Source: a virus. From it: a stretch of DNA of 24,374 bases. The notes under the pieces were generated by a model. The model did no database searches, was not told the DNA's origin, and saw only the letters and a list, made by a program, of their open reading frames with translations. The stretch lies in the IMG/VR virus record IMGVR_UViG_3300020176_001676, positions 1 through 24,374 of that record. One strand, 5' to 3'. The position numbers were made by a program, and so were the translations under genes. Positions within the stretch are counted from its first letter, which is position 1. Each line of letters begins with the position of its first letter. Positions 1,945 to 24,374 of this stretch are shown here, in pieces.

Positions 1945-1945
1945 A

Positions 1946-4129: not shown

Positions 4130-4130
4130 A

Positions 4131-6302: not shown

Positions 6303-6314
6303 TGTAACAATACC

Positions 6315-7920: not shown

Positions 7921-7946
7921 TATTAATATATCCTTTAGATTATATA

Positions 7947-9515: not shown

Positions 9516-9697
9516 GCTGCTTCTCCCATATCAATTTCAACACAATGGCAAGCATCCTCTACTACTATGAGTAGATTTTTCAAATGCCTACGTTCGTCAC
9601 TTGTAAGGCGACCGACTTCATCAAAGATATTTTCGACTGATGAATCATTTGCAATATTAGCTAATACTGATTCTAAGACTTTATAACGATATTTCAT
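9512..9697 (-). CDS. Small protein of unknown function, first gene behind promoter P1
   Basis: 61 aa, not recognised. Sequence MKYRYKVLESVLANIAND, then VGRLTSDERRHLKNLLIVVED and CHCVEIDMGEAA at the end; predicted helical with two cysteines close to the C-terminus (CHC). ATG 9697 has a strong Shine-Dalgarno GAGGAG at 9-nt spacing, and promoter P1 ends about 30 bp upstream, which makes this the leading gene of its unit. Its stop overlaps the HAD nucleotidase start by four bases (ATGA). The good ribosome-binding site and promoter-proximal position suggest an abundant early protein. No function can be given. Confidence 0.65.
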   Translation of the reverse strand: MKYRYKVLESVLANIANDSSVENIFDEVGRLTSDERRHLKNLLIVVEDACHCVEIDMGEAA

Positions 9698-9728
9698 AAT
9701 TTAGCTCCTCTTCCTAATTGTTGATACT

Positions 9729-9761
9729 ATTCTATCACAAAGGAACAGCTTTGTAAACCCC
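9729..9761 (-). promoter_or_regulatory. Promoter P1 (GGGG-TTTACA-N17-TAGAAT)
   Basis: On the minus strand, GGGG (9761-9758) joins a TTTACA -35 box (9757-9752), a 17-bp spacer and TAGAAT (9734-9729). The expected start of transcription is near 9722, some 25 nt before the ATG at 9697. An A-rich tract with AAAATGAAAAAAA lies directly upstream, like an UP element. The spacer contains a dyad (see 9737-9754). One of six matching promoters in the window. Confidence 0.85.
9737..9754. repeat. Dyad in the spacer of promoter P1
   Basis: ACAAAG (9737-9742) and CTTTGT (9749-9754) form a perfect 6-bp inverted repeat separated by 6 bp. It lies between the -10 and -35 boxes and overlaps the -35 by three bases. 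A repressor or activator bound there would touch RNA polymerase. The repeat is short and could be chance. Confidence 0.35.
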
Positions 9762-9788
9762 TTTTTTTCATTTTATTTGATTTTTTTA

Positions 9789-10478
9789 TTATTTTATACC
9801 GAGCATTTCTTTAGTCATAATGTAGTCACGTACAAAGTCCGATCGTACGATATCCTTCCAGCCAAATTCTACTGATTCGAATTGCTGCAAGGATTCTACA
9901 ATATTCATAAAATCCATAATACCCTTCTTTTCATTTTCATTCTTAAAATCAGACTGGTAATAATCACCGGACATAATCAATCTACAGTTCTGGCCGACAC
10001 GTGTAACTACAGAATCCAGTTCATGGAAATTCAGATTTTGCATTTCATCTACTAGTATAATAGCATCGTTAAACGTAGTTCCTCGAATAAAAGAAGTAGA
10101 CTCGAATTGTACTTTCTTCTGCATAACTAGTTTAGACCAGGCTTCTCCGTTTCCAAATATCTCTGAACAGATACCAACATAAGGTAAAGTGTATACCTGT
10201 TTCTTTTCTTCTTCATCTCCTGGAAGGAAACCAATATCCCGAGTTGGTACAATAGAACGTACCATAATCAGTCTATCATATGGCGTTTCTTTATCAAGTA
10301 CTTCTTCGAGTGCTAGATTCATACCAAGAAAGGTTTTACCAGTACCGGCAGATCCTGAAAGAATAAGATTTAAACCTTTATCCCAGAATTCAATTGCTTT
10401 TTGTTGATTACCAGTAATAGCATCAAAGGAACGTAAATGTTCTAATTTTATAGTATTTGGTGCATAAGATTTAGTCAA
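9789..10478 (-). CDS. phoH: PhoH-like P-loop ATPase
   Basis: 229 aa. Walker A is GSAGTGKT (42-49) and Walker B is ILVDEMQN (141-148); FLPGDEEEKK (84-93) and MSGDYYQSDF (about 169-178) are the other conserved PhoH blocks. PhoH proteins are predicted ATPases/helicases, named from the E. coli phosphate-starvation gene, and are very common in marine phages; their role in infection is unsettled, with RNA metabolism or phosphate stress proposed. The start is TTG at 10478: no in-frame ATG occurs before residue 50, and AAGGA lies 12 nt upstream. It overlaps the previous gene by 8 nt. This is the last gene of the P2 unit; the next bases are A/T-rich and lead into P1. Confidence 0.92.
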   Translation of the reverse strand: MTKSYAPNTIKLEHLRSFDAITGNQQKAIEFWDKGLNLILSGSAGTGKTFLGMNLALEEVLDKETPYDRLIMVRSIVPTRDIGFLPGDEEEKKQVYTLPYVGICSEIFGNGEAWSKLVMQKKVQFESTSFIRGTTFNDAIILVDEMQNLNFHELDSVVTRVGQNCRLIMSGDYYQSDFKNENEKKGIMDFMNIVESLQQFESVEFGWKDIVRSDFVRDYIMTKEMLGIK

Positions 10479-10716
10479 CTTTAATTGTATTCCTTCGACC
10501 GGAGTTTTCTTTTATTCTCTTTTTCAAATCGTTAAATCCAGATGGTACACGTTTACCTTGTCCACCATCGACACCAGATACAAATTTAGGTGTACTAAGA
10601 ACTTTCTCAATATCCTTGTCTTTTAGCTTCTCTTGAAGCTCGGAATAAGAACACAGAACGTCCCAAGTTTCATTTGTTTTTTTGTTTCTTAGAATATACG
10701 TAGGCAACTTTATCAT
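10471..10716 (-). CDS. FmdB-like small phage protein lacking the zinc cysteines
   Basis: 81 aa. The N-terminus reads PTYILRNKKTNETWDVLCSY and resembles FmdB-type regulators (MPTYxF...GExxE...S), but the CxxC pairs of that zinc ribbon are missing, leaving only C22. The middle KVLSTPKFVSGVDGG and the basic end GFNDLKKRIKENSGRR match a form I recall from T4-like marine phages. ATG 10716 has GGGAAG only 3 nt away, too close to work well. TTG at 10707 gives the family-like start LPTY and better spacing, so the true protein may be 78 aa. It overlaps the metalloprotease gene by 38-47 nt, unusually long here. Possible nucleic-acid binding; role unknown. Confidence 0.66.
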   Translation of the reverse strand: MIKLPTYILRNKKTNETWDVLCSYSELQEKLKDKDIEKVLSTPKFVSGVDGGQGKRVPSGFNDLKKRIKENSGRRNTIKVD

Positions 10717-11203
10717 CCACTTCCCGTAATGTTATGTTGTATCTATCCTTCATATGTTTACGTACATATTCATAGACTTCCATTTCTTTTTCATATGCTT
10801 CCTTTTCCCAGGGCAGATCGTGATATTTTACTTCATTTATATTAACATATTCTTTTCCAAATGCCTGCAGATTAGATCGAGATAGATGTCTTAATCTTCT
10901 TTGTGCATATTGAGAAACATGTATTAGTTCATGACATAGCGAAGAAATCACAATGTGCATATCTGATGTATCAGTCCAGGATAAACGTATATCAAAAAAC
11001 TTAGGAGATCGGTCGTAGTCTTCACAAAAGCAATCTGCAAATATACCTTCTTTTTTACAGAGATCTTTTATAATATGGTATTGTATATCAAGAGTATTTG
11101 CTAATCGTTTAGACACAAGATATTCAAGAGCTAATTCCGTAGCTCTCTCAATAGTCTTTTTTTGTCGATTGGATATATGATATCCTAAAAAGTGAACTAT
11201 CAC
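10670..11203 (-). CDS. Putative zinc metalloprotease (HExxH)
   Basis: 177 aa from GTG 11203. The zinc motif is in SLCHELIHVSQYAQRR (H91, E92, H95), and LPWEKEAYEKE about 40 residues later gives the Glu (E133 or E135) expected as third ligand, as in SprT-like and other phage zincins. No signal peptide, so it acts inside the cell: on host proteins or in processing of phage proteins, by inference. The GTG at 11203 overlaps the upstream stop as GTGA and has AGAGG upstream; an earlier in-frame GTG at 11227 lacks a usable Shine-Dalgarno. Basic C-terminus YSKKQKNK. Neighbours are an acidic unknown protein and an FmdB-like protein. It could also be a catalytically active anti-host protein; family name is uncertain. 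Confidence 0.72.
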   Translation of the reverse strand: MIVHFLGYHISNRQKKTIERATELALEYLVSKRLANTLDIQYHIIKDLCKKEGIFADCFCEDYDRSPKFFDIRLSWTDTSDMHIVISSLCHELIHVSQYAQRRLRHLSRSNLQAFGKEYVNINEVKYHDLPWEKEAYEKEMEVYEYVRKHMKDRYNITLREVDDKVAYVYSKKQKNK

Positions 11204-11622
11204 ACGATCATTGCCTCTTGCATCCACCTTTTCAAAGTAGGACGATCTATGCTCAAGGATGCAGCAAGCTTATCCATTTCAGCTTCTGCCTGAGCCTCGG
11301 CTTCGACTTCATACTTTGCCTCTGCATCCATGAGAGCAATAGCTTTATCGATCTCTACCTGGATCTCCTCATCAGTCATCGATGAGAAATCGAATGACCG
11401 AGCATACCCTTTACTGTATGCATCAGCGATGATGTAATATGCCTCTGTCTCGAGAGAGACACGGAGATACTCTGCAAGAGTACCAGTCGGCACACGCTCT
11501 GCCCAATATTCAACTTCAGAAGGATCGGGAAGCATACCAATAATGGTGCCAGGATTGGCATCCATTTCAGCCCGTGAAGCTGCGTTGGTTTCGATGATAT
11601 AATTTTTAAGGGCCTTTTCCAT
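11200..11622 (-). CDS. Acidic protein of unknown function, first gene behind promoter P2
   Basis: 140 aa, not recognised. N-terminal helix MEKALKNYIIETNAASRAEM, then PGTIIGMLPDPSEVEYWAERV, then a long acidic alanine-rich helix (about residues 80-120: EIQVEIDKAIALMDAEAKY and repeated EAEAQAEAE), ending in SIDRPTLKRWMQEAMIV, which could be a small helix-turn-helix. ATG 11622 has an excellent AGGAGAGAG Shine-Dalgarno and promoter P2 lies just upstream. The gene is visibly more GC-rich than its neighbours over roughly 11240-11580. Strong expression signals, acidity and leading position suggest an abundant early protein; function unknown. Confidence 0.65.
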   Translation of the reverse strand: MEKALKNYIIETNAASRAEMDANPGTIIGMLPDPSEVEYWAERVPTGTLAEYLRVSLETEAYYIIADAYSKGYARSFDFSSMTDEEIQVEIDKAIALMDAEAKYEVEAEAQAEAEMDKLAASLSIDRPTLKRWMQEAMIV

Positions 11623-11650
11623 GATCTCTCTCCTAATCTGTTACTATACT

Positions 11651-11684
11651 AATATAATGGTTTTCTGATCAAATGTAAACCCCC
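11651..11684 (-). promoter_or_regulatory. Promoter P2 (GGGGG-TTTACA-N17-TATATT)
   Basis: GGGGG (11684-11680), TTTACA (11679-11674), 17-bp spacer and TATATT (11656-11651) on the minus strand. Transcription should start near 11644, 22 nt before the AGGAGAG-led gene at 11622. Upstream lies an A-rich stretch with AAAATGAAAAAAA, the same wording as upstream of P1. Confidence 0.83.
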
Positions 11685-11709
11685 AAAGTGCATTTTTTTC
11701 ATTTTTTTT

Positions 11710-12252
11710 TCAAATTTTTTCAATTAAATCTGATGCATCTTTTAGGAATCCGTGTACAAAATAGGAATCACCTACTGATTGCTTTATAGCATAGGGATAA
11801 GTAAAGAAACAAGGAAACATTACTAATCGACCTGGAAGTCTATCAATAACTGCTTCATGGTCTGGTAGTTCTACTGATCCGCCAGTACCATCGTTTAGAA
11901 AAAGGAAAAAATGTAAAAACAAACGTGGATCTTCACCTTTATATATTTTAGGTAAACTCTCATCACCAGTTTCATATTTAAATAAACCAACTTCTTCTAT
12001 ACCATAATGCTTAGGATATTGCCATTCTTTTACATTACAAACTTCGGCATATTTGTCAGCTGCAATAGAAAAAGCACTAGCAATTTTTTCTACCTCTGGT
12101 CGAACATCTTCTTGGGATATAAGATCAAGTACTTTATATGATTCTTCGTCCGATTCTAACTTAAACATATTTTTAGTCTTGATCTTTTCTATAAAAGAAT
12201 TACACCAATCTTCATCGAATACTTGATCCCATATACGAATATAATTATCCAT
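11710..12252 (-). CDS. 2OG-Fe(II) oxygenase-fold protein lacking the iron ligands
   Basis: 180 aa. The pattern FKYETGDESLPKIYKGEDPR, FLHFFLFLNDGTGGSVELP (112-130), DRLPGRLVMFP (137-147), TYPYAIKQSVGDSYFVHGFL (151-170) follows prolyl-4-hydroxylase-type 2-oxoglutarate oxygenases: LNDxxxGGxxxxP, then PxxGxxxxFP, then a late strand. The expected metal H-x-D region reads P-K-I-Y-K, the distal His reads Tyr in YPYAIK, and the 2OG-binding Arg position reads Asp-Ser. So the fold is probably kept and the catalytic centre lost, or the ligands have moved. The start overlaps the upstream stop as TAATG. Downstream is an A/T-rich stretch leading to P2. If inactive it may bind a partner or ligand. Family call rests on pattern only. 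Confidence 0.55.
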   Translation of the reverse strand: MDNYIRIWDQVFDEDWCNSFIEKIKTKNMFKLESDEESYKVLDLISQEDVRPEVEKIASAFSIAADKYAEVCNVKEWQYPKHYGIEEVGLFKYETGDESLPKIYKGEDPRLFLHFFLFLNDGTGGSVELPDHEAVIDRLPGRLVMFPCFFTYPYAIKQSVGDSYFVHGFLKDASDLIEKI

Positions 12253-12809
12253 TATACTGCTACCTCAAACCATTCTGGAATAGAACGTTTAGTCCAGGCC
12301 ATCTTGAACCTATGTTGTTTAGTCTGATAAAATTTACGATAAGATCCAACAGGATCTGAACTATCTATACACTCGGGTGATGCGCCCATAGCAAGCTTGA
12401 ATGCTGTTTGCCGTCCGTATGGAATATTGTTAGGAACATCTATAAGAGTATCTTGAAGATCAGTCCAAGATTTATGTGTACGACCATACCTATATATAAA
12501 TTCATCATGGAGTGCACAATAATGTTCGTAATGCCAAAGATAGTTAGTAATAGATTCCATAGTCCATACAGTACACGGATGTCCGACGTGCACCGCCTTA
12601 TATAGAATATTTTCTCTTTTATCCGGTAACTCCCAGTACTTTACCATAGTCTTACCAGACTTAGAAGGACGCCGCGTTTCTTTACCATCTAATACACGAT
12701 GGGCAGTAGATAACATCTGTGCCGATTCTAGTATCATTTTGGAAACGTGTGCATCACATTGAATTTGTGCTGCTTTTACAGGGTCTTTGTCAAGTATAAA
12801 AATATTCAT
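12252..12809 (-). CDS. Conserved phage protein, Pyr_excise-like
   Basis: 185 aa. It starts MNIFILDKDPVKAAQIQC and continues DAHVSKMILESAQMLSTAHR, then GHPCTVWTMESITNYLWHY, NNIPYGRQTAFKLAMG, DPVGSYRKFYQTKQ and ends WTKRSIPEWFEVAV. From memory this is a strongly conserved family in T4-like marine phages, distantly grouped with pyrimidine-dimer DNA glycosylases (Pyr_excise); whether it is a glycosylase is not shown. Conserved His and Glu in HVSKMILESAQM (about 21-32) could be functional. ATG 12809 has GGAG about 11 nt upstream, and promoter P3 gives a leader of about 28 nt. It is the first gene of a two-gene unit with the oxygenase-like gene. Confidence 0.68.
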   Translation of the reverse strand: MNIFILDKDPVKAAQIQCDAHVSKMILESAQMLSTAHRVLDGKETRRPSKSGKTMVKYWELPDKRENILYKAVHVGHPCTVWTMESITNYLWHYEHYCALHDEFIYRYGRTHKSWTDLQDTLIDVPNNIPYGRQTAFKLAMGASPECIDSSDPVGSYRKFYQTKQHRFKMAWTKRSIPEWFEVAV

Positions 12810-12820
12810 GATGTATGTAT

Positions 12821-12860
12821 CTCCGTTCCGATAAACTCTATCTATTATACCGAAACGGAG
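12821..12860. repeat. Inverted repeat around the -10 box of promoter P3
   Basis: CTCCGTTCCG (12821-12830) and CGAAACGGAG (12851-12860) are inverted copies with 9 of 10 matches, separated by 20 bp that hold the -10 box and the probable start of transcription. The centre lies near 12840. Because one arm is upstream of the transcript start, this would work as DNA (operator) rather than as an RNA hairpin. The downstream arm also supplies the GGAG Shine-Dalgarno. Confidence 0.5.
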
Positions 12861-12877
12861 ACACTTTGTAAATCCCC
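12844..12877 (-). promoter_or_regulatory. Promoter P3 (GGGGA-TTTACA-N17-TATAAT)
   Basis: GGGG (12877-12874) plus A, TTTACA (12872-12867), 17-bp spacer and a perfect TATAAT (12849-12844). The G run shares its first base with the TAG stop of the 57-aa gene, so gene and promoter abut. Probable transcription start near 12837, giving a 28-nt leader. It has the best -10 of the set together with P6. Confidence 0.87.
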
Positions 12878-13050
12878 TATGTTACTAAAATTCTGGTTTT
12901 TTGTATTTCAGCTATCTGTTCATCTAAGAATATTTTTTTCAATAGCACTTTAGCCATTCTATCGGTTCTTCCTTGTTTTCGATACCGAGCAATTGCAAAT
13001 TCGAGTTGACGCGAATCTTTTTTAAGCCGTTCGATTTGAGCTGAAACCAT
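12877..13050 (-). CDS. 57-aa basic helical protein
   Basis: A short gene: ATG 13050-13048, stop TAG 12879-12877. Protein MVSAQIERLKKDSRQLEF, then AIARYRKQGRTDRMAKVLL, then KKIFLDEQIAEIQKTRILVT. It is basic, almost fully helical by eye, with a heptad-like pattern (coiled coil) and no catalytic motif. GGAGAAA at 8-nt spacing before the ATG is a good Shine-Dalgarno. The gene fits exactly between the terminator hairpin (13066-13098) and promoter P3, whose G run begins within its stop codon. How it is transcribed is unclear: either read-through of the terminator or a promoter not seen. A longer ORF in another frame over this region has no such signals. Function unknown. Confidence 0.66.
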   Translation of the reverse strand: MVSAQIERLKKDSRQLEFAIARYRKQGRTDRMAKVLLKKIFLDEQIAEIQKTRILVT

Positions 13051-13065
13051 TTATAGTTTTCTCCA

Positions 13066-13098
13066 GAGAAAAAGCGTATCACAGAATATGATACGCTT
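13066..13098 (-). terminator. Rho-independent terminator after the DUF6433-like gene
   Basis: Minus-strand hairpin with perfect 10-bp arms AAGCGTATCA (13098-13089) and TGATACGCTT (13081-13072), a 7-nt loop, and a run of five T (including the stem end) continuing TTTTTCTC. It lies 40 nt beyond the stop at 13138. It would end the P5/P4 transcript. The T run is short, so read-through into the 57-aa gene is likely. Confidence 0.78.
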
Positions 13099-13137
13099 AA
13101 CAAGTTAAGGTAAAGGATGCTAAAGTTTGGATGCATA

Positions 13138-13557
13138 CTATTTCCTAATAATATCTGGAAAAGCCTCTTGAATAATTTTAAGGGTAATACCGTCACATGG
13201 CTTTTCTTTGTTAATCATTTTTACAACCAATTCAGCATCACGAGGGTGTATTGATTCCAGAATGCCAAGAAAAATATTCTCTCTTTTAAATCCTGGAATC
13301 CTTTCGCCAGGCCCGCCTTTTACGACGTACCGGAATTCTTTATATTTACTAAGAAGATTTGAAGGCGCATTGTGTTCCTCACTTGCGGTATAAGGAACTG
13401 GACCTTTCGGAAGTAGAAATTCTACTTTAGGATCCATTGCACCTGCCAAAATAGATTTAAGTGCCAAGGTATCATTTTGTTTTAATACTTGGACTTTTGC
13501 CTTACGGTCTTTTGCTTTTTCAAATTGTTCTAATACTTCATGTACTAATTTAGCCAT
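13138..13557 (-). CDS. Conserved phage protein, DUF6433-like
   Basis: 139 aa. Sequence features: MAKLVHEVLEQFEKAKDRKA, VLKQNDTLALKSILAGAMD, VEFLLPKGPVPYTASEEHNAP, a basic central part with FRYVVKGGPGERIPGFKREN, then ILESIHPRDAELVVKMINKEK and ITLKIIQEAFPDIIRK. This order (N-terminal helix, LLPxGxVPY, a G-G loop, LExxHPxDAE and a final AFP motif) matches the family I know as DUF6433 from T4-like phages; its function is not established. It starts on the TAATG overlap with the 5' nuclease gene, a neighbour that suggests a role in DNA replication or early metabolism. A terminator follows. No membrane segment or signal peptide. Confidence 0.75.
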   Translation of the reverse strand: MAKLVHEVLEQFEKAKDRKAKVQVLKQNDTLALKSILAGAMDPKVEFLLPKGPVPYTASEEHNAPSNLLSKYKEFRYVVKGGPGERIPGFKRENIFLGILESIHPRDAELVVKMINKEKPCDGITLKIIQEAFPDIIRK

Positions 13558-14396
13558 TAGAAAAACTCCTCAACAACTTCTACTAATAATCTGCAACGTT
13601 TTTCAACAAGATAAGGAAATACTTTTCCTTTATTTCCAGATGGGTTCTGATTCATAAAATTATTTATAATTTCTTTTGACACCGTTTCTGGGGTTTCTGA
13701 TAAATCTATCAGTTTTTTATTACGTAAGTAATTACGATATACTTCTTCACCAAGAGCTTTTGGATCATCAAGTAGTATCTGTTTCTTTTTAGAAGAAAGA
13801 ACATTTTGCTTTCTACCTTCTACAAATACCTTATCATCTGATAGGACATTTGGTACACCATCACCAGAATCGCCTTTTAGTATCTTTTCCATAAGACCAA
13901 GACGTGGATTATCTTCCTTGACAAACTTTTTAGTCATTGGTGAAAACTGCTTGACGTTATCAAACTTTTGTAGCTGTTTGAAGTCATGGTCAGAAGATAT
14001 AATCATTACTGGTTCATATTGGCCAAGCTCTTGTGTATTCATAACGATTTGGGCAATAGAATCATCTGCTTCACATCCCCATATGTGTACCATTTTATAC
14101 GGAAAGTTTTCAGCAAGTTCTTCACGTACCATATTCGTAATACGAAAAATCTCCTGCCAGTCACGCTTATCGTCATCACGATTTGTCTTACGCTTAGCTT
14201 TATATTCAGGATAATAATCTTTACGCCAGTTGCCACCAGCATCGGCAACAATAACTACATCACCATATTCTTGGAACTTTTGTCTGTACATTCGAATAGA
14301 ATTCAGGATCATATGGCGAATAATATCTTCTTCTGGCATTAGTTTCTGTGCAATAATATTACCAATGGCAATACCATTATAGTCAATAATAATCAT
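13557..14396 (-). CDS. rnh: T4 RNase H-like 5' nuclease (FEN family)
   Basis: 279 aa. Metal-binding acidic residues of the FEN/5'-3' exonuclease fold are visible: D5 in MIIIDYNG, D52 in IVADAGGNWRKDYYPEYKAKR (helical-arch basic stretch at 57-69), E109/D111/D112 in GCEADDSIA, D136/D138 in SSDHDF, and D176/D179 in GDSGDGVPN, the helix-hairpin-helix-like DNA-binding site. It is close in length to T4 RNase H (305 aa). It should remove RNA primers and flaps on the lagging strand. Overlaps the SPASM-like ORF as ATGA and is 91 nt downstream of the probable start from internal promoter P4, so it can be expressed separately from the radical SAM genes. Cytoplasmic, at the replication fork. Confidence 0.88.
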   Translation of the reverse strand: MIIIDYNGIAIGNIIAQKLMPEEDIIRHMILNSIRMYRQKFQEYGDVVIVADAGGNWRKDYYPEYKAKRKTNRDDDKRDWQEIFRITNMVREELAENFPYKMVHIWGCEADDSIAQIVMNTQELGQYEPVMIISSDHDFKQLQKFDNVKQFSPMTKKFVKEDNPRLGLMEKILKGDSGDGVPNVLSDDKVFVEGRKQNVLSSKKKQILLDDPKALGEEVYRNYLRNKKLIDLSETPETVSKEIINNFMNQNPSGNKGKVFPYLVEKRCRLLVEVVEEFF

Positions 14397-14671
14397 AATG
14401 TATCCTTTACGTTTTTCCCAGAGCAGTATTCATAGCAGAGATCAGGTCCTTTACCCCTTTTCAAGTCGCTATAAAAGCTTTTCCATTCTTTAGATAGTAC
14501 CACATCTTCAACGGATTGTAAATCCCCTAATTTGAATTTTTCATCAACTAAGGCTGCAATATCACTTTCAAAAAGGTTAGGTATATCCCAGTGACAGCAC
14601 GGGAGTATGTATCCACGGGCTGTATGGCCGTAAGGTTTACCTGAAAGACATTTTGGTTTTAAATTGCTCAT
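14393..14671 (-). CDS. SPASM-like C-terminal half of a split radical SAM enzyme
   Basis: 92 aa. It reads PKCLSGKPYGHTARGYILP followed by CCHWDIPNLF, then LGDLQSVEDVVLSKEWKSF and CYEYCSGK; cysteines C8, C25, C26, C79 and C83 match the auxiliary iron-sulfur pattern of SPASM/twitch domains, and the ILPCC element also occurs in the intact enzyme at 6949-7920 (APCC). There is no CxxxCxxC of its own. It overlaps the radical SAM core ORF by 35 nt in the +1 frame and has its own ATG at 14671 with a weak AGAAAGAG. It is either a separately translated subunit, the product of a +1 frameshift, or the result of a split. Promoter P4 lies inside it. Its stop overlaps the 5' nuclease start as ATGA. Confidence 0.75.
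   Translation of the reverse strand: MSNLKPKCLSGKPYGHTARGYILPCCHWDIPNLFESDIAALVDEKFKLGDLQSVEDVVLSKEWKSFYSDLKRGKGPDLCYEYCSGKNVKDTL
14494..14527 (-). promoter_or_regulatory. Internal promoter P4 (GGGGA-TTTACA-N17-TACTAT)
   Basis: Inside the SPASM-like ORF: GGGG (14527-14524), A, TTTACA (14522-14517), 17-bp spacer and TACTAT (14499-14494). It keeps every element of the other five, including the G run and spacer, though the -10 is weaker. Start of transcription near 14487, about 91 nt upstream of the 5' nuclease ATG. Confidence 0.65.
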
Positions 14672-15275
14672 AATCTCTTTCTACATAATGTTGGGGGTTT
14701 GTAGGCTTCAACTCATCATCTTCATTGAATCTACTTGATCGTATAAAGTTAATTGGTATTTTATAATAGTCGGCTAACTGTTTAGCTTCTTGCATTGTAT
14801 CTTCGTTATATTTAAAAATAATATAGTTCCAGTATACTTTCAATCCCATTTGTTTCGCTAAAAACATCATTTCAAATAGTTTAGTGCCATCCTGGTTCTT
14901 TCTATAGAGATGGCTTTCTTCTGGGATTCCGTCTATGCCAAAGGTCCAGTGAGCTTTTGGATTCGAATTAAATGCTTCCAAGTACCAAGCCTTAGTTCTA
15001 TTCGAGGCAGCATTGTCTACGTATGTTTCGATCCCCCGTTCGTAATTTAATCGAAGGAACATCGGGAATTGGTTGTGCATGGTTGGATCGGATACGTTCC
15101 CGCAGAAATGTATTTTATCAAAGTAGTCCGTAATAGTCTTATATTCTGTGAAGGACATATCATGCCCTGGAATACGTAATCCGTTTTTCCTATAAGATAT
15201 TCTTAGGCACTTTGGACACTCAAGTGTGCATCGGTTAGTGATATCTAAATTAATTGATTTAAGTCTATTTAACAT
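14637..15275 (-). CDS. Radical SAM enzyme core, SPASM domain on a separate ORF
   Basis: 212 aa from ATG 15275. The cluster motif is CTLECPKC (C-x3-C-x2-C) near residue 16, after SINLDITNR. Then FCGNVSDPTMHNQF, in place of the GGEP strand, and IYVDNAASN-like ETYVDNAASN, WTFGIDGIPEESHLYR, and a TIM-barrel-type series of strands up to VERDYEQFKTKMSFR, where it stops. The whole length is short because the auxiliary-cluster part lies in the next ORF in the +1 frame. In-frame TTG (15284) and GTG (15281) could also start it. P5 places the transcript start near 15290, so the leader is only about 6-15 nt, with no good Shine-Dalgarno. Substrate unknown. Confidence 0.8.
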   Translation of the reverse strand: MLNRLKSINLDITNRCTLECPKCLRISYRKNGLRIPGHDMSFTEYKTITDYFDKIHFCGNVSDPTMHNQFPMFLRLNYERGIETYVDNAASNRTKAWYLEAFNSNPKAHWTFGIDGIPEESHLYRKNQDGTKLFEMMFLAKQMGLKVYWNYIIFKYNEDTMQEAKQLADYYKIPINFIRSSRFNEDDELKPTNPQHYVERDYEQFKTKMSFR

Positions 15276-15296
15276 AAGCACCAATTTTTACATTAT

Positions 15297-15330
15297 ATAA
15301 TACCATATTTTTATTTAATTGTAAATCCCC
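15297..15330 (-). promoter_or_regulatory. Promoter P5 (GGGGA-TTTACA-N17-TATTAT)
   Basis: GGGG (15330-15327), A, TTTACA (15325-15320), 17-bp spacer and TATTAT (15302-15297) on the minus strand, in the gap between SNase and the radical SAM gene. Expected start near 15290, only about 15 nt before the ATG. A-rich sequence lies upstream within the end of the SNase gene. Confidence 0.82.
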
Positions 15331-15337
15331 TTTTATG

Positions 15338-15757
15338 TTATTTTATTTTAATTTCCGTAACATCTATAAATTCTCTATTTTTTATATGACCTTCTGCAAT
15401 ATCATCTTTTGATTGTCCGAAGTACGCTACTGCATGATGTTGTTCAATCATCATTTCATTTAGAATTCTGCCGTCTTCTAGTTTGAATTTTCCGAGTATT
15501 CTACCGTATTTTCCGACGCCATCTTTCATAGTAACTAGAATTTGTGTAGATCCAACAGGAATATGATCTTTTACAAACTGCTTAGCAGCAAGACCGTATT
15601 TCTTTTCTTCTTTATCGGAGGTTCGACTTTCTGGCGTATCAATACCATGAAACCGAATCCTTTGTTTTCTTAACCATACACCAAATCCTAGATCTATATC
15701 TACATCTGTTGTATCGCCGTCTACTACTCTGAGGATTTTACACTTATATTCGTACAC
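15338..15757 (-). CDS. Staphylococcal nuclease-like (thermonuclease) protein
   Basis: 139 aa. It shows the OB-fold nuclease core: VVDGDTTDVDIDLGF (11-25) with the metal-binding Asp, RIRFHGIDTPESR (33-45) with R35, D40 and E43, and KYGRILGKF (83-91) with R86. These correspond to the calcium ligand, general base and the two catalytic arginines of the family. Family members cut DNA and RNA to 3'-phosphomononucleotides and need calcium. No signal peptide, so it should work in the cytoplasm, probably on host nucleic acids for reuse with the ribonucleotide reductase. GTG start at 15757 has GGAGACG at 7-8 nt. It overlaps the small basic gene by 34 nt. Promoter P5 lies right after its stop. Confidence 0.88.
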   Translation of the reverse strand: MYEYKCKILRVVDGDTTDVDIDLGFGVWLRKQRIRFHGIDTPESRTSDKEEKKYGLAAKQFVKDHIPVGSTQILVTMKDGVGKYGRILGKFKLEDGRILNEMMIEQHHAVAYFGQSKDDIAEGHIKNREFIDVTEIKIK

Positions 15758-15927
15758 GAGTCGTCTCCCTTATGCTTTGATGGTTTTAATAATTTTTTGG
15801 CCTGCCTATTCGCCCTGCTTAAACTAGCTCTCTGTCTCAAGCTTAGGTTAGAGGGGTTATATTTTAAATGTACCGTCATAGCCCTTTGTTTCCGTAAACC
15901 TATCTTCAAATTTATAGCTAAATTCAT
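15724..15927 (-). CDS. 67-aa basic peptide of unknown function
   Basis: 67 aa, not recognised. MNLAINLKIGLRKQRAMTVH, LKYNPSNLSLRQRASLSRAN, RQAKKLLKPSKHKGDD, then SCTNISVKSSE. It is strongly basic in the middle (Lys/Arg about one in four) with a Ser/Asn-rich tail and one Cys. ATG 15927 overlaps the upstream TauD-like stop as ATGA, and the tail overlaps SNase by 34 nt; an internal ATG (residue 17) would give a 51-aa form. The coupling supports translation. It could bind nucleic acid, or be a substrate of the neighbouring modifying enzymes (ATP-grasp-like, oxygenase, radical SAM); both are guesses. Confidence 0.55.
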   Translation of the reverse strand: MNLAINLKIGLRKQRAMTVHLKYNPSNLSLRQRASLSRANRQAKKLLKPSKHKGDDSCTNISVKSSE

Positions 15928-16778
15928 TCATTAAACAATCCTCCATAATCAAAACTTATACGATACAATAACCTATCTCCTTCAACTTGGTTGCGCTTAT
16001 GTATACTATGAAACTGGTCCATAAAAATAAAGTCACCTGTTTTCCAATCATTATGGTGGTATATATATTTTTCTTGAAACACATGATCGATTAAATATTC
16101 TTTAAGCCATTTTTCATCTAATGGCTTTCCTGAACGTCTCCACATTTTTCTTATGTAATGAAACGTAAAGTATAAACCTTTATCATTATCCCAAGGATGG
16201 TTATATACTAAAGGTTTAGTAACTCCTTCTGGATAAATCCGTTTGTTTTCAAACATTATTAGTTCTTTGTCATCTTCGTCTAATTTGTAAAAAGTATTAT
16301 TTTTGAATTGGAAAGTACAATCTACATCATCTACTATTTCTTTGATTTCGTCAGGTAATTCTCTATAAGCTTTACGTGTATCGCAAAAACTTGTGATGCT
16401 GTTTTCACCTGGTTCGACACAATAAAGAGCAACACAAGATTCCTTGCCGCTCGGACGACCGTTACCATTTGAGTGCCAATCTAATTCTTTATCAGCAAAA
16501 ATTCCGATTTTTTCACCGTTTTCTCTTCTATTAGTAACCCTAAATAATCCAGGATATTCTGGATGCATAAAAAATTGCTTAGGTTTCAAAACAGTGCCGA
16601 ATGTTTCGCAGATACGTAAAATATCTTCTTCATTACATTTTTGATTTCTGACAACTACAATATTATCTTTAATAATGTTTCTACCAAAATCCTTTAATTC
16701 ATCAACGCTTAACTTACTTAGATCTAAATCTTCGTATTTTATTCCTACGTTCATAATTTTTCCAAACTTCTTCTTCAT
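15924..16778 (-). CDS. TauD/TfdA-like 2OG-Fe(II) dioxygenase with an H-x-N motif
   Basis: 284 aa. The double-stranded beta-helix of TauD/TfdA-type dioxygenases is indicated by FGTVLKPKQFFMHPEYP (60-76), LDWHSNGNG (99-107), YCVEPGENSITSFCDTRKAY (119-138), GDFIFMDQFHSIHKR (248-262) and LLYRISF (270-276). Distal His H260 and 2OG-binding Arg R273 are in place. The first facial-triad motif reads H102-S-N104 where H-x-D/E is usual, which would weaken iron binding or mark an unusual subgroup. The substrate is unknown; phage members may hydroxylate nucleobases, proteins or small molecules. The start overlaps the ATP-grasp-like stop as ATGA; an internal ATG at residue 9 is possible. Member of the P6 unit. 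Confidence 0.8.
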   Translation of the reverse strand: MKKKFGKIMNVGIKYEDLDLSKLSVDELKDFGRNIIKDNIVVVRNQKCNEEDILRICETFGTVLKPKQFFMHPEYPGLFRVTNRRENGEKIGIFADKELDWHSNGNGRPSGKESCVALYCVEPGENSITSFCDTRKAYRELPDEIKEIVDDVDCTFQFKNNTFYKLDEDDKELIMFENKRIYPEGVTKPLVYNHPWDNDKGLYFTFHYIRKMWRRSGKPLDEKWLKEYLIDHVFQEKYIYHHNDWKTGDFIFMDQFHSIHKRNQVEGDRLLYRISFDYGGLFNE

Positions 16779-17410
16779 GTTTGTATTCGTACATAAGCTC
16801 CTATCCTCCCGTGAATATCTGGATACTCTATGTATCTATATCCGTTAGGTGGATTTATATCTTCACCTTCCCAAACAGGTATAAAAGATGTATTACCCCA
16901 TTGGAAATCATTATTTTTTCTAAGATGTACTTCGATTAAACGAGAACCAATAAATTCACAATTAATCCATTCATATTTTTCTTTTATCGGATTTAATATT
17001 TTAGGAAAACTTATAATTCTTTCTATAGCAGGCAAATCATCAACTTGTTCCCACCTATCCCACTTTACAAACGTATCTTCTTTTTTAAATCCCTCGACAA
17101 CAAGTTTAATTTTACCCCATTGGTAATCTACACTAAAATGTCTTCCCTTAAATACTTCGCACCAGAAATATCCTGGGGTAAGATGATCTGTACCGCAGTC
17201 AACAGCTTGTAAATATTCTAAACTTGTACCGATACCTAAACCTAGTGCATTCTTACACGGTCGAACGATATATCTGTTATCTTCGGGTACATCCATACCT
17301 ACTGGGCCACAGATGTATTCTAACTTTCTTGAAAGAATAAATTTATCTAAAACCCAAATATGATCTGGGTCTATATTCTTCCAAACTTCGTCTTCATAAC
17401 ATATCTCCAT
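16775..17410 (-). CDS. ATP-grasp-like protein of unknown function
   Basis: 211 aa. MEICYEDEVWKNIDPDHIWV, then CGPVGMDVP and YIVRPCKNALGLGIG (47-61), which looks like the glycine-rich loop between the two ATP-grasp lobes; WCEVFKGRHFSVDYQWG (83-99) fits the lid strand and NCEFIGSRLIEVHLRKNNDF (150-169) fits the metal-binding strand where E/N/R coordinate Mg-ATP. Such enzymes join a carboxylate to an amine or thiol through an acylphosphate. I recall this protein as a conserved hypothetical of T4-like marine phages, without proven activity. It overlaps the GIY-YIG gene by 17 nt and the TauD-like gene by 4 nt. Smaller than typical ATP-grasp proteins (about 300 aa), so the N-terminal part is reduced. 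Confidence 0.5.
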   Translation of the reverse strand: MEICYEDEVWKNIDPDHIWVLDKFILSRKLEYICGPVGMDVPEDNRYIVRPCKNALGLGIGTSLEYLQAVDCGTDHLTPGYFWCEVFKGRHFSVDYQWGKIKLVVEGFKKEDTFVKWDRWEQVDDLPAIERIISFPKILNPIKEKYEWINCEFIGSRLIEVHLRKNNDFQWGNTSFIPVWEGEDINPPNGYRYIEYPDIHGRIGAYVRIQT

Positions 17411-17825
17411 CCTTTAGCCTCTTAACATGAGATCGATGTATCCTGCAATTAATAATACCATTATAATAGGTATCATCTAACAATACAGATCTATCGAATT
17501 GTTCTTTTGCTTCGAGATATCCCATTTCTCCCTTTGATTTACAGAGATATAGTATCTCACGGCGGAATCCTTTCTCACCGTGATCTTCAAGGAGTTGTTT
17601 AACCAGGTCAGATGATCCGAAGTAGTCTTTCCAGTTGGATTCGACAATACTTCTTCTTTTCCTGGTTTTACCTTTAAGCGGGGGAAGTGTTTTTCTCGAC
17701 CAGAATCCCTTTTTACCAACGTACTTTTTGTTATTGGTAAGATCCGTGATGATGTATACAAATCCTGCCCAATCCCGTAATTGATCTTCGGAGGGATTAA
17801 ATTCTCTATCATTATAGTACCACAT
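17394..17825 (-). CDS. GIY-YIG-type endonuclease-like protein
   Basis: 143 aa from ATG 17825. GFVYIITDLTNNKKYVGKK (21-39) is the GIY-YIG signature (G-V-Y then Y-V-G), followed by a basic segment KGKTRKRRSIVESNWKDYFG and, later, KGEMGYLEAKEQF, where Glu residues could bind the metal. These are Mg-dependent nucleases; phage examples act as homing endonucleases or in degradation of DNA. The fold looks complete but short, without a separate DNA-binding domain, closer to T4-like phage stand-alone nucleases than to intron-encoded ones. The reading frame stays open 29 codons further upstream, but that part overlaps the zinc-ribbon gene and begins with no signal, so I reject it. No intron is apparent nearby. 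Confidence 0.73.
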   Translation of the reverse strand: MWYYNDREFNPSEDQLRDWAGFVYIITDLTNNKKYVGKKGFWSRKTLPPLKGKTRKRRSIVESNWKDYFGSSDLVKQLLEDHGEKGFRREILYLCKSKGEMGYLEAKEQFDRSVLLDDTYYNGIINCRIHRSHVKRLKDGDML

Positions 17826-17836
17826 ACATCTATATA

Positions 17837-17986
17837 TCAGTCCCAATCTTCCTCGTCTAGATCTAATCCCTTGTGTAAGATTGCTTCGCTTCTGCGACCA
17901 CACATAGGACAAAATTCTGGATGATCAGATGCTACCATATATGTGGTTTCTTCACATTCTTCGCATTCGATTTTGAATTCGATCAT
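17837..17986 (-). CDS. 49-aa zinc-ribbon protein
   Basis: ATG 17986-17984, stop TGA 17839-17837. MIEFKIECEECEETTYMVA, then SDHPEFCPMCGRRSEA, then ILHKGLDLDEEDWD. Two CxxC pairs (C8/C11 and C26/C29) give a classical zinc ribbon, and the tail is acidic. The start overlaps the NrdB stop as ATGA, so it is translationally coupled to ribonucleotide reductase. The gene fills the gap between nrdB and the nuclease gene exactly. Small phage zinc ribbons of this kind can contact nucleic acid or RNA polymerase. Its fusion in expression with nrdAB could also suggest a redox or assembly role; both are inference. The zinc ligand pattern is clear. Confidence 0.82.
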   Translation of the reverse strand: MIEFKIECEECEETTYMVASDHPEFCPMCGRRSEAILHKGLDLDEEDWD

Positions 17987-18945
17987 GCTACTTTGTCCCA
18001 GTCCCAATCGCCTTCCATAGAAGTTACGGAATATTCAGTAACACGTTTTTCGAAGAAGTTATCATGTGAAGCACCATTCAGTACCCAATCAAGCCACGGT
18101 AGAGGATTATCTTTTACCTTAAATGTTGGCTTCAGGCCAAGCTGTAGAAGACGACGGTCTGCAATATGTCGGATATAGTCTTTTACTTCTTGTCTTGTTA
18201 ATCCCTGTACATCATCAATACCTTTGAATGATAGTTTAATAAATGCGTCTTCGAGCTTAACTGCATCTCTTGCCATCTGGTAGATTTTAGATTTTAGTTC
18301 ATCGTTAACAATACGTGGATGTTCATCACAGAACTCACGGAAAAGTTTAGCAATACCCTGAACATGCATTGATTCGTCACGTATTGACCATTCAACAATT
18401 GTTCCCATTCCTTTCATCTTGCCAAACCGTTGGAAGTTCAGCAACATTACAAAGGAAGCAAACAAGCTCATTCCTTCGTTAAATACAGATTGTGCCATAA
18501 TAAGTGCTAGACCTTGCAGAGTGTTTGGATTACCCTGTGACATAAATTCAATCTTATCTGCCATTTCCTTATATTCAAGGAAGGCATGAAATTCTTCATC
18601 AGGTAATCCAAGAGTATCATTGAGGAGAGCATATGCACGCTGGTGTACACCTTCACGGTTAGCAAATGACGAAAGCATGTTACGTACTTCATTATTCTTA
18701 AATTTAGGAATAAGAAGCTCATGGTAATTTTCGCCTACCTGAACATCAGACTGAGTAAACAGACGAAGAACTTGTGTAATAAATTCTTTTTCATCATCAG
18801 ACAGTTTAGTTTTCCAATCCTGAACATCTTCGGATAGTTCAGCTTCGTCTTCGACCCAATGGATCTCTTCATGCTTTTTTGTTAGTTCTACCGCCCATGG
18901 GTATAGGAATGGGCGATAAGTTTTAGATACTTCTGTAAGTGACAT
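17983..18945 (-). CDS. nrdB: Ribonucleotide reductase class I small subunit (beta)
   Basis: 320 aa. All metal ligands of the di-iron ferritin-like fold are present: D67 (TQSDVQVG), E98 and H101 (NREGVHQRAY), E157 (FNEGMSLFASF), E191 and H194 (IRDESMHV). Tyr105 sits where the radical tyrosine lies in the E. coli enzyme (Y122), four residues after the His, so a tyrosyl-radical type is likely. It pairs with the NrdA homologue next door to convert ribonucleoside diphosphates to deoxy forms. The C-terminal tail SMEGDWDWDKVA carries the aromatic/acidic end that docks into NrdA. ATG 18945 has AGAGGAG at good spacing, 11 nt after nrdA. Host-independent dNTP supply during infection. Confidence 0.94.
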   Translation of the reverse strand: MSLTEVSKTYRPFLYPWAVELTKKHEEIHWVEDEAELSEDVQDWKTKLSDDEKEFITQVLRLFTQSDVQVGENYHELLIPKFKNNEVRNMLSSFANREGVHQRAYALLNDTLGLPDEEFHAFLEYKEMADKIEFMSQGNPNTLQGLALIMAQSVFNEGMSLFASFVMLLNFQRFGKMKGMGTIVEWSIRDESMHVQGIAKLFREFCDEHPRIVNDELKSKIYQMARDAVKLEDAFIKLSFKGIDDVQGLTRQEVKDYIRHIADRRLLQLGLKPTFKVKDNPLPWLDWVLNGASHDNFFEKRVTEYSVTSMEGDWDWDKVA

Positions 18946-18956
18946 GTTTTCTCCTC

Positions 18957-20948
18957 TTAGCCTTCACATGCGCGACACTCGTCGCCTGATTCTATTGTCA
19001 TCGGTTGATTTAAATATTCCATTAGTTCGTCATAGCCACCAACATACTGGCCACTGATGTAAATTTGTGGTACGGTCTTTACTTTACGTCCTGTAACTTC
19101 TGCTGCGGTCTTGCCAATTTCTTCTAGGTCAATATAATCAAACTGAATACCACGTAAAGAAAGTTCTTCTTTTGCTCTTGCACAATATGGGCAATCGATC
19201 TTACCATATACGATATTACGATCATCACCCTGTAGTGCTACACGTTCTACTTTTTCAGAAACATTTTCTGCACGTTGCTTTGCTTCCGTACGTAAGTAGT
19301 AAAGACCTTTTAGTCCTTCCTTCCATGCTTTTACATGTACTTTATTTACATACGATTTTTCTGCACCAGCAGGGAAAAATACGTTTACTGATTGACCTTG
19401 ACAAATATAAGGTTGTCTATCTGCAGCATGTTGTACTACCCAATTTTGATCAAGCTCTTGTGCTGTCTTAAATACTGCCTTTTCACCTTCAGTCAAGAAT
19501 GGTAGATGTTGTACTGAACCTTTATTTGTAATAATAGAAGTCCATATAGATTCGTTATTTTCGCCGTGCCTTTCTAATACTTCTTCCAGGTATTTGTTCT
19601 TAACAAGAAAAGAACCTGCACGTGTACGATGTGTATATGCATTTGCCTTACTTGGTTCAATACTCGGTGAGGTAGAAAGAATAATGCCAGATGATGCATT
19701 TGGTGCAATAGCCATAAGGTGTGCATTACGACGACCTGTACCAATACCATCCGGATATTCACCTCTCTCCTGCGCAAGCTTTTCTGTCTGGGAAATAGCA
19801 CGTTTCTGAATATCTTCAAATACGACTTTATTCATTTCTCTTGCATGATCACTCTCCCAGGCAACACCGTGCTTTTGTAAGAGTGAATGGAAACCCATTG
19901 CACCTAGTCCGATAGATCTCTCACGTTCCGCAGAGAACCTTGCTCTCGAAATTGTATCAGGAGCATTTTCGATAAAATACTCGAGGACATTGTCAAGCAT
20001 AATGATAAGATCTTCGACAAGAGTAGTATCCTTCCACTCGTCATAGAGTTCAAGGTTGAGAGAAGATAAACAACAGACCGCAGTGCGTTCAGCAGAAGTT
20101 GGTAAATGAATTTCATTACACAAGTTGGAACCATGAATTTTTAATCCTAAATCTTTTAGATTCTGCGGTAAATGTTTATTTGCTATATCTATAAAGTTTA
20201 AATAAGGCTCCCCAGTACGGAAACGTGTTTCAATAATACGTTGCCAAAGTTTACGTGCATTTACTGTTTCTTTTACTTCATCGTCCTTCGGATCTTTTAA
20301 ATCCCAATCTTCATCATTTATAACTGCATTCATAAATGCATCAGAGATATTAATAGCATTATGCAAATTAAGAGCCTTACGCTGTACGTCACCAGTCGGT
20401 ATACGCATATTAAGGAATTCTATAACATCCGGATGCGAAACGTCCATATAGGCTGCGTATGAGCCTTTACGGGTACGTCCTTGGCGATATGCAATCATAT
20501 CAGCATCTACCGTATGTAGAAATGGCATAGGGCCAGGAGCAATATCAGATACTGTACGTACGTCACTCCAATGACCGCCAACTCCACCTCCATAAACAGA
20601 TAGCCAACGTAATTCTGAAGTATGTTCGATTAATCCTTCCAGCGTATCTGGAACATATGTCAAGAAACAAGATATAGGCATACCTTTGTCATTCTTTGTA
20701 CCATTTGGTGCATTCGAAAGAACAGGTGAGGCAAACATAAACCATTTGTTTGAAACTGCATTATATAATCTTTGAGCTAGAAGTTCGTCTGTATTGCCCT
20801 GGAAAGTTGCCCATGCACTTGCTGCACGAGCATATGCCTCTTGAGGTGACGATTCATTCTTTCTCATATAAAAATCTTTGAGCATACCAACAGCATATTC
20901 TGTTAGTAGGCTATCTTTTTTCTTATTAATTTTAATGGTATTTTGCAT
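18957..20948 (-). CDS. nrdA: Ribonucleotide reductase large subunit (alpha) with glutaredoxin domain before the C-terminal tail
   Basis: 663 aa from ATG 20948 (AGGGG at 6 nt); an in-frame GTG five codons upstream is less likely. It lacks the N-terminal ATP-cone: the protein starts close to the ten-stranded barrel domain. Core residues: redox C94 (PISC), N275/C277/E279 (NLCNEI) as the active-site radical cysteine region, its redox partner in TAVCCLSSLN (C292/C293), and Y550/Y551 in LYYLRT for radical transfer. After this comes a glutaredoxin domain with CPYC (586-589), TVPQIYISGQYVGGYDEL and then, at the very end, DECRACEG (C658, C661), the CxxC swinging tail that re-reduces the active site. 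So the glutaredoxin is inserted between core and tail. Behind promoter P6. Confidence 0.93.
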   Translation of the reverse strand: MQNTIKINKKKDSLLTEYAVGMLKDFYMRKNESSPQEAYARAASAWATFQGNTDELLAQRLYNAVSNKWFMFASPVLSNAPNGTKNDKGMPISCFLTYVPDTLEGLIEHTSELRWLSVYGGGVGGHWSDVRTVSDIAPGPMPFLHTVDADMIAYRQGRTRKGSYAAYMDVSHPDVIEFLNMRIPTGDVQRKALNLHNAINISDAFMNAVINDEDWDLKDPKDDEVKETVNARKLWQRIIETRFRTGEPYLNFIDIANKHLPQNLKDLGLKIHGSNLCNEIHLPTSAERTAVCCLSSLNLELYDEWKDTTLVEDLIIMLDNVLEYFIENAPDTISRARFSAERERSIGLGAMGFHSLLQKHGVAWESDHAREMNKVVFEDIQKRAISQTEKLAQERGEYPDGIGTGRRNAHLMAIAPNASSGIILSTSPSIEPSKANAYTHRTRAGSFLVKNKYLEEVLERHGENNESIWTSIITNKGSVQHLPFLTEGEKAVFKTAQELDQNWVVQHAADRQPYICQGQSVNVFFPAGAEKSYVNKVHVKAWKEGLKGLYYLRTEAKQRAENVSEKVERVALQGDDRNIVYGKIDCPYCARAKEELSLRGIQFDYIDLEEIGKTAAEVTGRKVKTVPQIYISGQYVGGYDELMEYLNQPMTIESGDECRACEG

Positions 20949-20960
20949 AAAAGACCCCTG

Positions 20961-20981
20961 CACCGAAAATTGCTTTCAGTG
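20961..20981 (-). promoter_or_regulatory. Hairpin abutting the nrdA ribosome-binding site
   Basis: In the nrdA leader the minus strand reads CACTGAAA, a 5-nt loop and TTTCGGTG, an 8-bp stem with one G-T pair. Its last base is one nucleotide before the AGGGG Shine-Dalgarno (20959-20955). It could tune translation or protect the 5' end. No long poly-T follows, so it is not a terminator. Short enough to be chance. Confidence 0.35.
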
Positions 20982-21009
20982 TTTTAATTTATTTTCATTT
21001 GATGGTAGT

Positions 21010-21042
21010 ATTATATATCGTTATTGGAAGTTTGTAAACCCC
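21010..21042 (-). promoter_or_regulatory. Promoter P6 of nrdAB (GGGG-TTTACA-N17-TATAAT)
   Basis: GGGG (21042-21039), TTTACA (21038-21033), 17-bp spacer and a perfect TATAAT (21015-21010). Expected start near 21003, leader about 55 nt to the nrdA ATG. It is flanked by direct repeats described separately. The upstream sequence is A/T-rich. Confidence 0.87.
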
Positions 21043-21056
21043 GATATATCGTTATT
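21013..21056. repeat. Direct repeats overlapping promoter P6
   Basis: On the minus strand AATAACGATATAT occurs twice (21025-21013 and 21056-21044), 31 bp apart, close to three helical turns, so both lie on the same face of the DNA. One copy overlaps the -10 box, the other sits just upstream of the -35 next to a CGATATATCG palindrome (21042-21051). This is what an operator pair would look like. No other promoter here has it. Confidence 0.55.
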
Positions 21057-21063
21057 TTCGATT

Positions 21064-21792
21064 TTATTCCCAGTTATTTTTTTCCTTATCGGAAAGCAAA
21101 CGGGTAACAATTTTCTCTGCTTTGGAATCATGAACATAATAATAATCGGTTCTTCTTTTATACAAACAGGTGTATCCTATTTGTCTCATAAATTTATCTA
21201 TTCGGGGTTTATGAGTCTTAACGTGTGCTGGCCTTACTTCTAAGACTACGGTAGGTTTATGATTTAATAAAAGATTCTTGGCTCCGATGACGACTTTTTC
21301 TTCGTAGCCTTCTACGTCTATTTTTATAAAATCGACTTCTATATCTTTAGATAAAAAATGATCTAAAGTGTCTATTTTTATATTAGTACGCCTACTAGCC
21401 GAACCTCCTGCTTTTTCTCCGTTTTCTAGAAATCGACTTATTCCTGGCCTGTTGGGATTGTATTTAAAATCTCTTTTTTCTACAACATTACCAATACCGA
21501 TACGGTATGTATTTACATTTTTTAAATTATGTTCTTCTATATTTTTTAAGAGACATTCGTAGACAGGAGGATTAGGCTCAAATGATATTATTTTTTGGAA
21601 GTATGGTGAAAAGCCGATAGTTGTCTGACCGATATTAGCACCAACGTCAAGACAAACTCTTCTAGGTCCTGGACAGAAATAATCTACAGTAAATTCACAG
21701 AAATAATTTTGCCATTGTTCTGGATTAGGCCAATATTCAAACCATTTCGTTTCTTCTAGGTCAGTTATCCACCAGTTGTTTACTTTTTTCAA
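21064..21792 (-). CDS. FkbM-family methyltransferase
   Basis: 242 aa. Class I SAM methyltransferase with FkbM wording: CLDVGANIGQTTI (47-59) as motif I, SFEPNPPVYECL (70-81), and DFIKIDVEGYEEKVVIGAKN (154-173), followed by KPTVVLEV. FkbM enzymes usually O-methylate sugars or polyketides, and phage members often belong to glycan clusters, yet this one stands between the lysis genes and nrdAB, away from the island. The start is TTG 21792 inside the last 32 nt of the o-spanin gene, with no other in-frame start before the fold; GAAGAC lies upstream. C-terminal tail RLLSDKEKNNWE is charged. Substrate unknown; may act on the same glycan as the island. Confidence 0.8.
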   Translation of the reverse strand: MKKVNNWWITDLEETKWFEYWPNPEQWQNYFCEFTVDYFCPGPRRVCLDVGANIGQTTIGFSPYFQKIISFEPNPPVYECLLKNIEEHNLKNVNTYRIGIGNVVEKRDFKYNPNRPGISRFLENGEKAGGSASRRTNIKIDTLDHFLSKDIEVDFIKIDVEGYEEKVVIGAKNLLLNHKPTVVLEVRPAHVKTHKPRIDKFMRQIGYTCLYKRRTDYYYVHDSKAEKIVTRLLSDKEKNNWE

Positions 21793-24004: not shown

Positions 24005-24014
24005 GAGTTAATCC

Positions 24015-24368: not shown

Positions 24369-24374
24369 TGGCTT

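Follow-up and report, generated by a model that had tools for sequence, protein, structure and literature searches.

Within the window, a 24,374-base fragment of a viral genome, six short sequence blocks combine a run of G residues with an adjoining -35 hexamer and a correctly spaced -10 box, and the question arises whether these blocks are promoters, which polymerase would read them and what the G residues contribute. Every gene of the window lies on the - strand, and the gene content includes PhoH, a T4-type RNase H, DUF6433, a staphylococcal-nuclease-like protein and the large subunit of ribonucleotide reductase. Because PhoH is only about 50% identical to its nearest named counterparts, which are those of cyanophages, and the protein of ORF 12252-12809 is 63% identical to that of its nearest named phage, C48C1 (Kyanoviridae), the fragment is, judged by its proteins, a T4-like virus whose named relatives are distant; the virus is related to the Kyanoviridae and Straboviridae. 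A megablast of the promoter region against named phages gave no match. The sites and the genes discussed below are the following:

9729-9762, - strand: P1, GGGG-TTTACA-17-TAGAAT, first T of the hexamer at 9757, 29.4 bits, upstream of ORF 9512-9697
11651-11684, - strand: P2, GGGGG-TTTACA-17-TATATT, first T at 11679, 37.8 bits, upstream of ORF 11200-11622
12844-12877, - strand: P3, GGGGA-TTTACA-17-TATAAT, first T at 12872, upstream of the denV-like ORF 12252-12809
14494-14527, - strand: P4, GGGGA-TTTACA-17-TACTAT, first T at 14522, 31.5 bits, within ORF 14393-14671 and upstream of RNase H
15297-15330, - strand: P5, GGGGA-TTTACA-17-TATTAT, first T at 15325, 31.8 bits, upstream of ORF 14637-15284
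21010-21043, - strand: P6, GGGG-TTTACA-17-TATAAT, first T at 21038, 24.3 bits, upstream of the reductase ORF 18957-20963
12252-12809, - strand: denV-like gene behind P3, 185 aa, PHROG 624, pyrimidine dimer DNA glycosylase family
13557-14396, - strand: T4-type RNase H / 5'-3' exonuclease, gene behind P4
18957-20963, - strand: ribonucleoside-diphosphate reductase large subunit, gene behind P6

Several further observations concern the genes themselves. The C-terminal residues 566-652 of the reductase large subunit match a thioredoxin-domain family (phrog_22). At 14393-15284, two ORFs overlap that contain paired cysteines (CTLECPKC; CCHWD..CYEYC) and resemble a split radical-SAM protein; a Pfam search gave no match for them, and P4 lies within the second. 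Positions 1-9500 hold a one-strand run of ORFs whose sequences suggest sugar or glycan enzymes and a radical-SAM protein (ORFs 2529-3455 and 6949-7920); a scan of this part found neither a G-block promoter nor the late promoter motif TATAAATA. A terminator-like hairpin at 13072-13098 (12 pairs followed by a T-rich stretch) follows the DUF6433 gene and precedes P3 by about 200 bp.

The pattern GGGR-TTTACA-N17-TAnnnT occurs six times in the window, where a second-order Markov null gives an expectation of 0.0025 (maximum 1 in 400). With a weight matrix built from relatives, the fragment itself being excluded, P1-P6 score 24-38 bits, and the runner-up, at position 1500, reaches 14 bits, is intragenic and lacks a G block, so that the absence of sites from 1-9700 and 21100-24374, as stated in the original prediction, was borne out. 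All six sites lie on the coding (-) strand and five of them, as had been noted, are intergenic, the exception being P4. The common architecture that had been proposed stands with respect to the single strand, the TTTACA hexamer and the 17-bp spacing; the literal GGGG(A/G) block is present at four of the six sites only, and since P1 and P6 carry just four Gs directly before TTTACA, the common block is GGGR, with G as the last base in P1, P2 and P6 and A in P3, P4 and P5. An AA following TTTACA, supposedly present in most copies, was found in only three, and the A-rich tract described for several sites proved to be general, as 19-22 of the 24 bases upstream of the -35 hexamer are A or T at all six.

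The sites recur in related viruses with the same geometry. Among 80 loci with phoH relatives, GGGR-TTTACA is followed by TAnnnT at 17 bp in 55 sites and at 15, 16 and 18 bp in one or two each; secondary peaks at 12, 19, 22 and 25 bp probably stem from A/T-rich sequence around the -10 box, e.g. ATAGCTTATATT. Of 19 related virus records, 15 contain strict sites (1-8 per record), always on the same strand within a record, and the reversed pattern gave no match in these 19. When 41 distinct sites were aligned without requiring a -10 box, TA appeared at +23/+24 in 93% of them, which corresponds to the 17-bp spacer, along with two A/T blocks upstream at an interval of about 10 bp, or one turn of the helix, an A/T step ahead of the Gs and a Shine-Dalgarno (SD) sequence about 45 bases downstream. 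In IMG/VR, the strict pattern was found in at least 119 stretches, whereas the reversed pattern gave 5 and a spacer of 18 bp gave 24; among the matches listed, T4-like proteins are encoded by 112 of the 119 stretches, and in the 106 cases with a T4-like gene downstream, that gene is on the strand of the promoter in 93. The relative G014 (151 kb) encodes a T4-type capsid protein; 23 of its 25 matrix sites share one strand, and its late-type TATAAATA sites are distributed 26 to 4 in favour of the coding strand. In the window, a scan for TATAAATA gave a single copy, which lies within a gene, and the fragment therefore yields no map of late transcription.

The promoter form is confined to this group as far as the searches reached. 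A search of named phages with a conserved 33-base promoter returned chance matches only, and the G-block form is absent from the seven named phages scanned; the cultured or named Kyanoviridae scanned (C48C1, Mosig, HTVC008M, Melnitz and P-TIM40) lack it. A literature search for the string GGGGTTTACA returned 14 papers, and none of their titles concerns phage promoters. In cellular genomes, TAGGGGTTTACA-N17-TATAAT gave 65 matches spread across unrelated groups and therefore no clue to the host.

The promoters also move with their genes. Orthologs of the genes behind P1, P3 and P4 carry a promoter 53-66 bp away, either at every locus or at some of them. Interior genes of the units, which serve as neighbouring controls, have none ahead of them (phoH, 0 of 79 orthologs; DUF6433, 0 of 35; SNase, 0 of 11). 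The result for P3, whose promoter is kept upstream of the ortholog in many contigs, is not independent, as the matrix was partly trained on P3 orthologs. For P1, the ortholog in L067 has the same promoter at equal distance; for RNase H, the promoter lies 53-56 bp ahead of the gene in relatives and P4 126 bp ahead in the window. The test for the P2 gene comprised a single locus, L126, from a near-identical record, and similar spacer sequences occur at sites in G003 and G008; P5 had no informative orthologs, and the one ortholog for P6 (L299) has a site below threshold. In the relatives, the sites are thus strand-pure, mostly intergenic and held at a fixed distance from conserved genes, not scattered at random density inside genes.

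We consider it highly probable that P1-P6 are T4-type early promoters read by the host RNA polymerase, with the G block as a clade variant and with a translation gate at P3. The polymerase carrying the main sigma factor would recognize the sites as strong composite promoters, in which phased A/T blocks serve the alpha C-terminal domains and are followed by an extended -35 element AGGGR-TTTACA, the 17-bp spacer and the -10 box. The sites, their conservation, strand, spacing and association with genes and the covarying repeat at P3 are results of computation, from which recognition by the unmodified host polymerase, early timing, the role of the G block and the effect on translation are inferred. 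The proposed map of early transcription units holds in so far as the promoters head units of T4-type prereplicative genes, the designation "early" being taken by analogy from the resemblance to T4 and from gene content. If transcription starts seven bases past the -10 box, the G block covers roughly -40 to -37. It falls between the UP element and the -35 hexamer, a stretch in which region 4 of sigma adjoins alpha. T4 likewise carries additional conserved bases between these two elements; the G block would be the clade's counterpart of them and would probably tune the contact made there by the two polymerase parts, and no new factor would be needed.

That the G block lies outside the usual sigma70 consensus is supported, and it had been suggested that a phage or host factor may read it. 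A DNA-binding protein recognizing the block and activating or repressing the set, for instance as a second temporal class, would account for its specificity in position and base, as GGG occupies positions -4 to -2 relative to the hexamer in 86-89% of the clade set (sites chosen with a matrix that favours G). It would likewise suit the relative G014, which has about 30 TTTACA-17-TAnnnT sites (e.g. 92647, 97627, 136737; loci L222-L229) with the G block or a GGTG form in only about one third of them; the remainder may be a second promoter class, and the G-block sites could therefore be one of two. Yet the sites already possess a complete -35 and -10 at optimal spacing together with UP-like blocks, T4 early promoters keep extra bases in the same position without such a factor (PMC2988021), and profiles of MotA and AsiA, the proteins with which T4 switches promoters, found no match (both profiles detect T4, and that of AsiA also KVP40) in eight clade records, most of which are fragments. 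A separate factor is therefore unsupported and we regard it as unlikely.

P3 differs in that its spacer takes part in an inverted repeat, which can be described as follows:

12817-12864, - strand: P3 inverted repeat; the spacer of the promoter contains arm 1 (12848-12864), and arm 2 (12817-12833) falls on the Shine-Dalgarno sequence CGGAGA

The gene behind it belongs, by sequence comparison, to a T4 denV-like family: 13 of 17 homologs match PF03013 (pyrimidine dimer glycosylase; best E 8.5e-9), the protein of 12252-12809 alone falls below a match to this family, and a search for solved structures found none. The repeat forms a stem of 17 bp (-25.8 kcal/mol, z -4.2 by folding) whose loop contains most of the -10 box, and the departures from Watson-Crick pairing in the stem core are G-U pairs (measured in L126, which is identical here). 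An RNA started at P3 lacks the first arm, and the predicted unpaired fraction of the SD sequence is 0.00 in read-through RNA vs. 0.63 in RNA started at P3. RNA running in from upstream would contain the P3 spacer and fold back onto the SD sequence, so that the denV-like gene is predicted to be translated mainly from RNA started at P3. According to this folding model, P3 likely acts as a gate, in which read-through RNA hides the ribosome-binding site and P3-started RNA does not. As a counterpoint, the terminator-like hairpin (13098-13072) should already limit read-through into P3, which may thus be rare. At P1, the read-through fold hides the SD sequence partly (unpaired 0.31 vs. 0.99; fold z -1.7).

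In upstream regions of denV-like orthologs, the pairing is kept with other arms, e.g. ATTCTATCCCGTCC/GGACGGGATAGAAT, AAAGCTCCCATAATT/GATTATGGGAGCTTT and GTTCCCCCTTTCTG/CAGGAAGGGGGAAT. A stem threshold is reached in 18 of 44 distinct upstream regions vs. 1.6 expected when arms are permuted between loci (thinned at 75% identity, with residual relatedness between loci remaining), and in 1 of 20 RNase H promoters from the same pool. A strong repeat is missing from the majority of the denV-like promoters, and clade promoters outside this gene show little excess of spacer-SD pairing. A different small gene at L243 (G008) is preceded by an early promoter (position 763) whose spacer and SD sequence form a 10-bp repeat (TCTCCGTGTG..CACACGGAGA).

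The arms flank the -10 box and PHROG annotates the product as a DNA binding protein, for which reasons the repeat might be a DNA operator, e.g. for the product of its own gene. For an operator, however, one would not expect arm sequences that vary widely between phages with the pairing kept, nor an arm falling on the SD sequence. In addition, non-Watson-Crick pairs in these stems are G-U in 23 cases vs. A-C in 9 (p 0.02, an optimistic value because a few of those loci are near-duplicates), and in the T4 spacer stems in 17 vs. 4, an excess that fits RNA and not DNA. We therefore consider an operator unlikely.

A further possibility is that the G block forms the 5' arm of a hairpin ending upstream transcripts, each site combining a terminator with a promoter. 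A few sites fit, such as G003:32994 (GGCGGTTTACAACCGCC followed by T7) and G009:786, and there is a slight excess of pairing across the -35 hexamer (p ~0.02), but none of the six sites in the window has a C-run and T-tract after TTTACA and most clade sites lack them as well, which makes this reading very improbable. Given the weak excess, it was rejected that the G block generally serves to form a hairpin across the -35 hexamer. At two places, L230/L231 (G003) 32994 and L239/L240 (G002) 21806, a G-rich/C-rich hairpin with a T-tract behind it has the TTTACA in its loop (GGCGGTTTACAACCGCCTTTTTTT), and there terminator and promoter appear to share bases. A chance or compositional artefact can practically be dismissed. 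The window is A+T-rich and a generic sigma70 scan, which was uninformative, gave no promoter excess over shuffles, but the null expectation, the strand-pure recurrence and the synteny with genes in relatives refute it.

Returning to the translation gate, pairing between spacer and SD sequence was also found in T4. For 34 T4 early promoters with an SD sequence, regB included, the mean stem score is 8.2 vs. 6.2 when permuted (reached in 0 of 2000), although in part of these stems the partner of the spacer is sequence ahead of the SD. In a sliding test restricted to the SD region, among windows upstream of the start those over the spacer pair above chance (z 5.2) and those located further upstream do not; a leader window deviates as well (z 5.7), but it overlaps the SD region and has no strong stem. 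RB69 shows one or two cases and thus a weak signal, and spacer-SD pairing was not found in Aeromonas phage 44RR, so a universal property of T4-type early promoters was rejected. In 44RR, the spacer pairs with bases directly after the -10 box, which would leave the SD sequence exposed; the repeat spans the -10 box with its arms in the spacer and just downstream (L436-L444; e.g. 44610, 72300, 38640; TGATGGG..CCCATCA). On balance we lean towards the view that T4-type early promoters double as translation gates for the denV-like gene in many uncultivated phages and for several T4 early genes such as regB. The spacer, which is never transcribed from its own promoter, would pair with the SD sequence of the gene, so that read-through RNA would be silent and local RNA translated.

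The G-block signature offers a reliable promoter marker for uncultivated T4-like viruses that form a widespread group. For marine T4-like phages, two papers defined the early class by generic promoter prediction only (PMC9004378, PMC7029224), and in one of them middle and late promoters were not predictable. The SD hairpin embedded in a promoter is more surprising than the promoters themselves and, if true, spacer-SD pairing would be a compact device letting promoter choice decide translation. In open-access text, a literature search found no report of an SD-hiding helix at early promoters.

Among known systems, the closest are the early promoters of T4, which consist of UP, -35, TGn and -10 elements with additional conserved regions and compete well for the host polymerase (PMC2988021). 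In T4, GTTTAC-N18-TAnnnT occurs at 39 sites on one strand and at none on the other, and the matrix derived from the relatives finds 18 sites, all on a single strand, vs. 0.1 expected. Shared features are a TTTAC-type -35 hexamer, a 17-bp spacer, a TATAAT-like -10 box, an A/T block at about -55 to -50, the use of one strand and the position upstream of prereplicative genes. The two differ in the bases ahead of the hexamer, where clade sites have GGG at -4 to -2 and T4 has G/A, T/C and A/T, its own extra conserved bases between UP element and -35 being A at -5 and G at -1; position -1 is G or A in the window and nearly always G in T4. The extended -10 motif TGn is present at three of the six sites but at most T4 early promoters, 85% of which have the G. 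RB69 and 44RR have early promoters of the T4 form, with no G block, and the block thus marks this clade's variety of the T4-type early promoter; RB49 and KP15, showing no strand bias for TTTAC-N18-TAnnnT, were left out. T4 middle promoters, which depend on a MotA box and AsiA, have the sigma70-type -10 box in common with the sites described here, but there the MotA box replaces the -35 hexamer, which is complete in P1-P6. The promoters belong to an established kind and have a new form specific to the clade.

For the gate at P3, the nearest parallel is provided by the T4 genes e, soc, 49 and I-TevI, whose SD sequence is hidden in an RNA helix; for gene e, this helix forms in upstream-initiated RNA and not in RNA from the late promoter (PMC3014915). 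These leaders share with P3 that upstream-initiated RNA hides the SD sequence and that RNA from the local promoter lacks the 5' arm. In genes e and I-TevI, however, the local promoter is late, whereas at P3 it is of the early type and the 5' arm is situated between its -35 and -10 elements.
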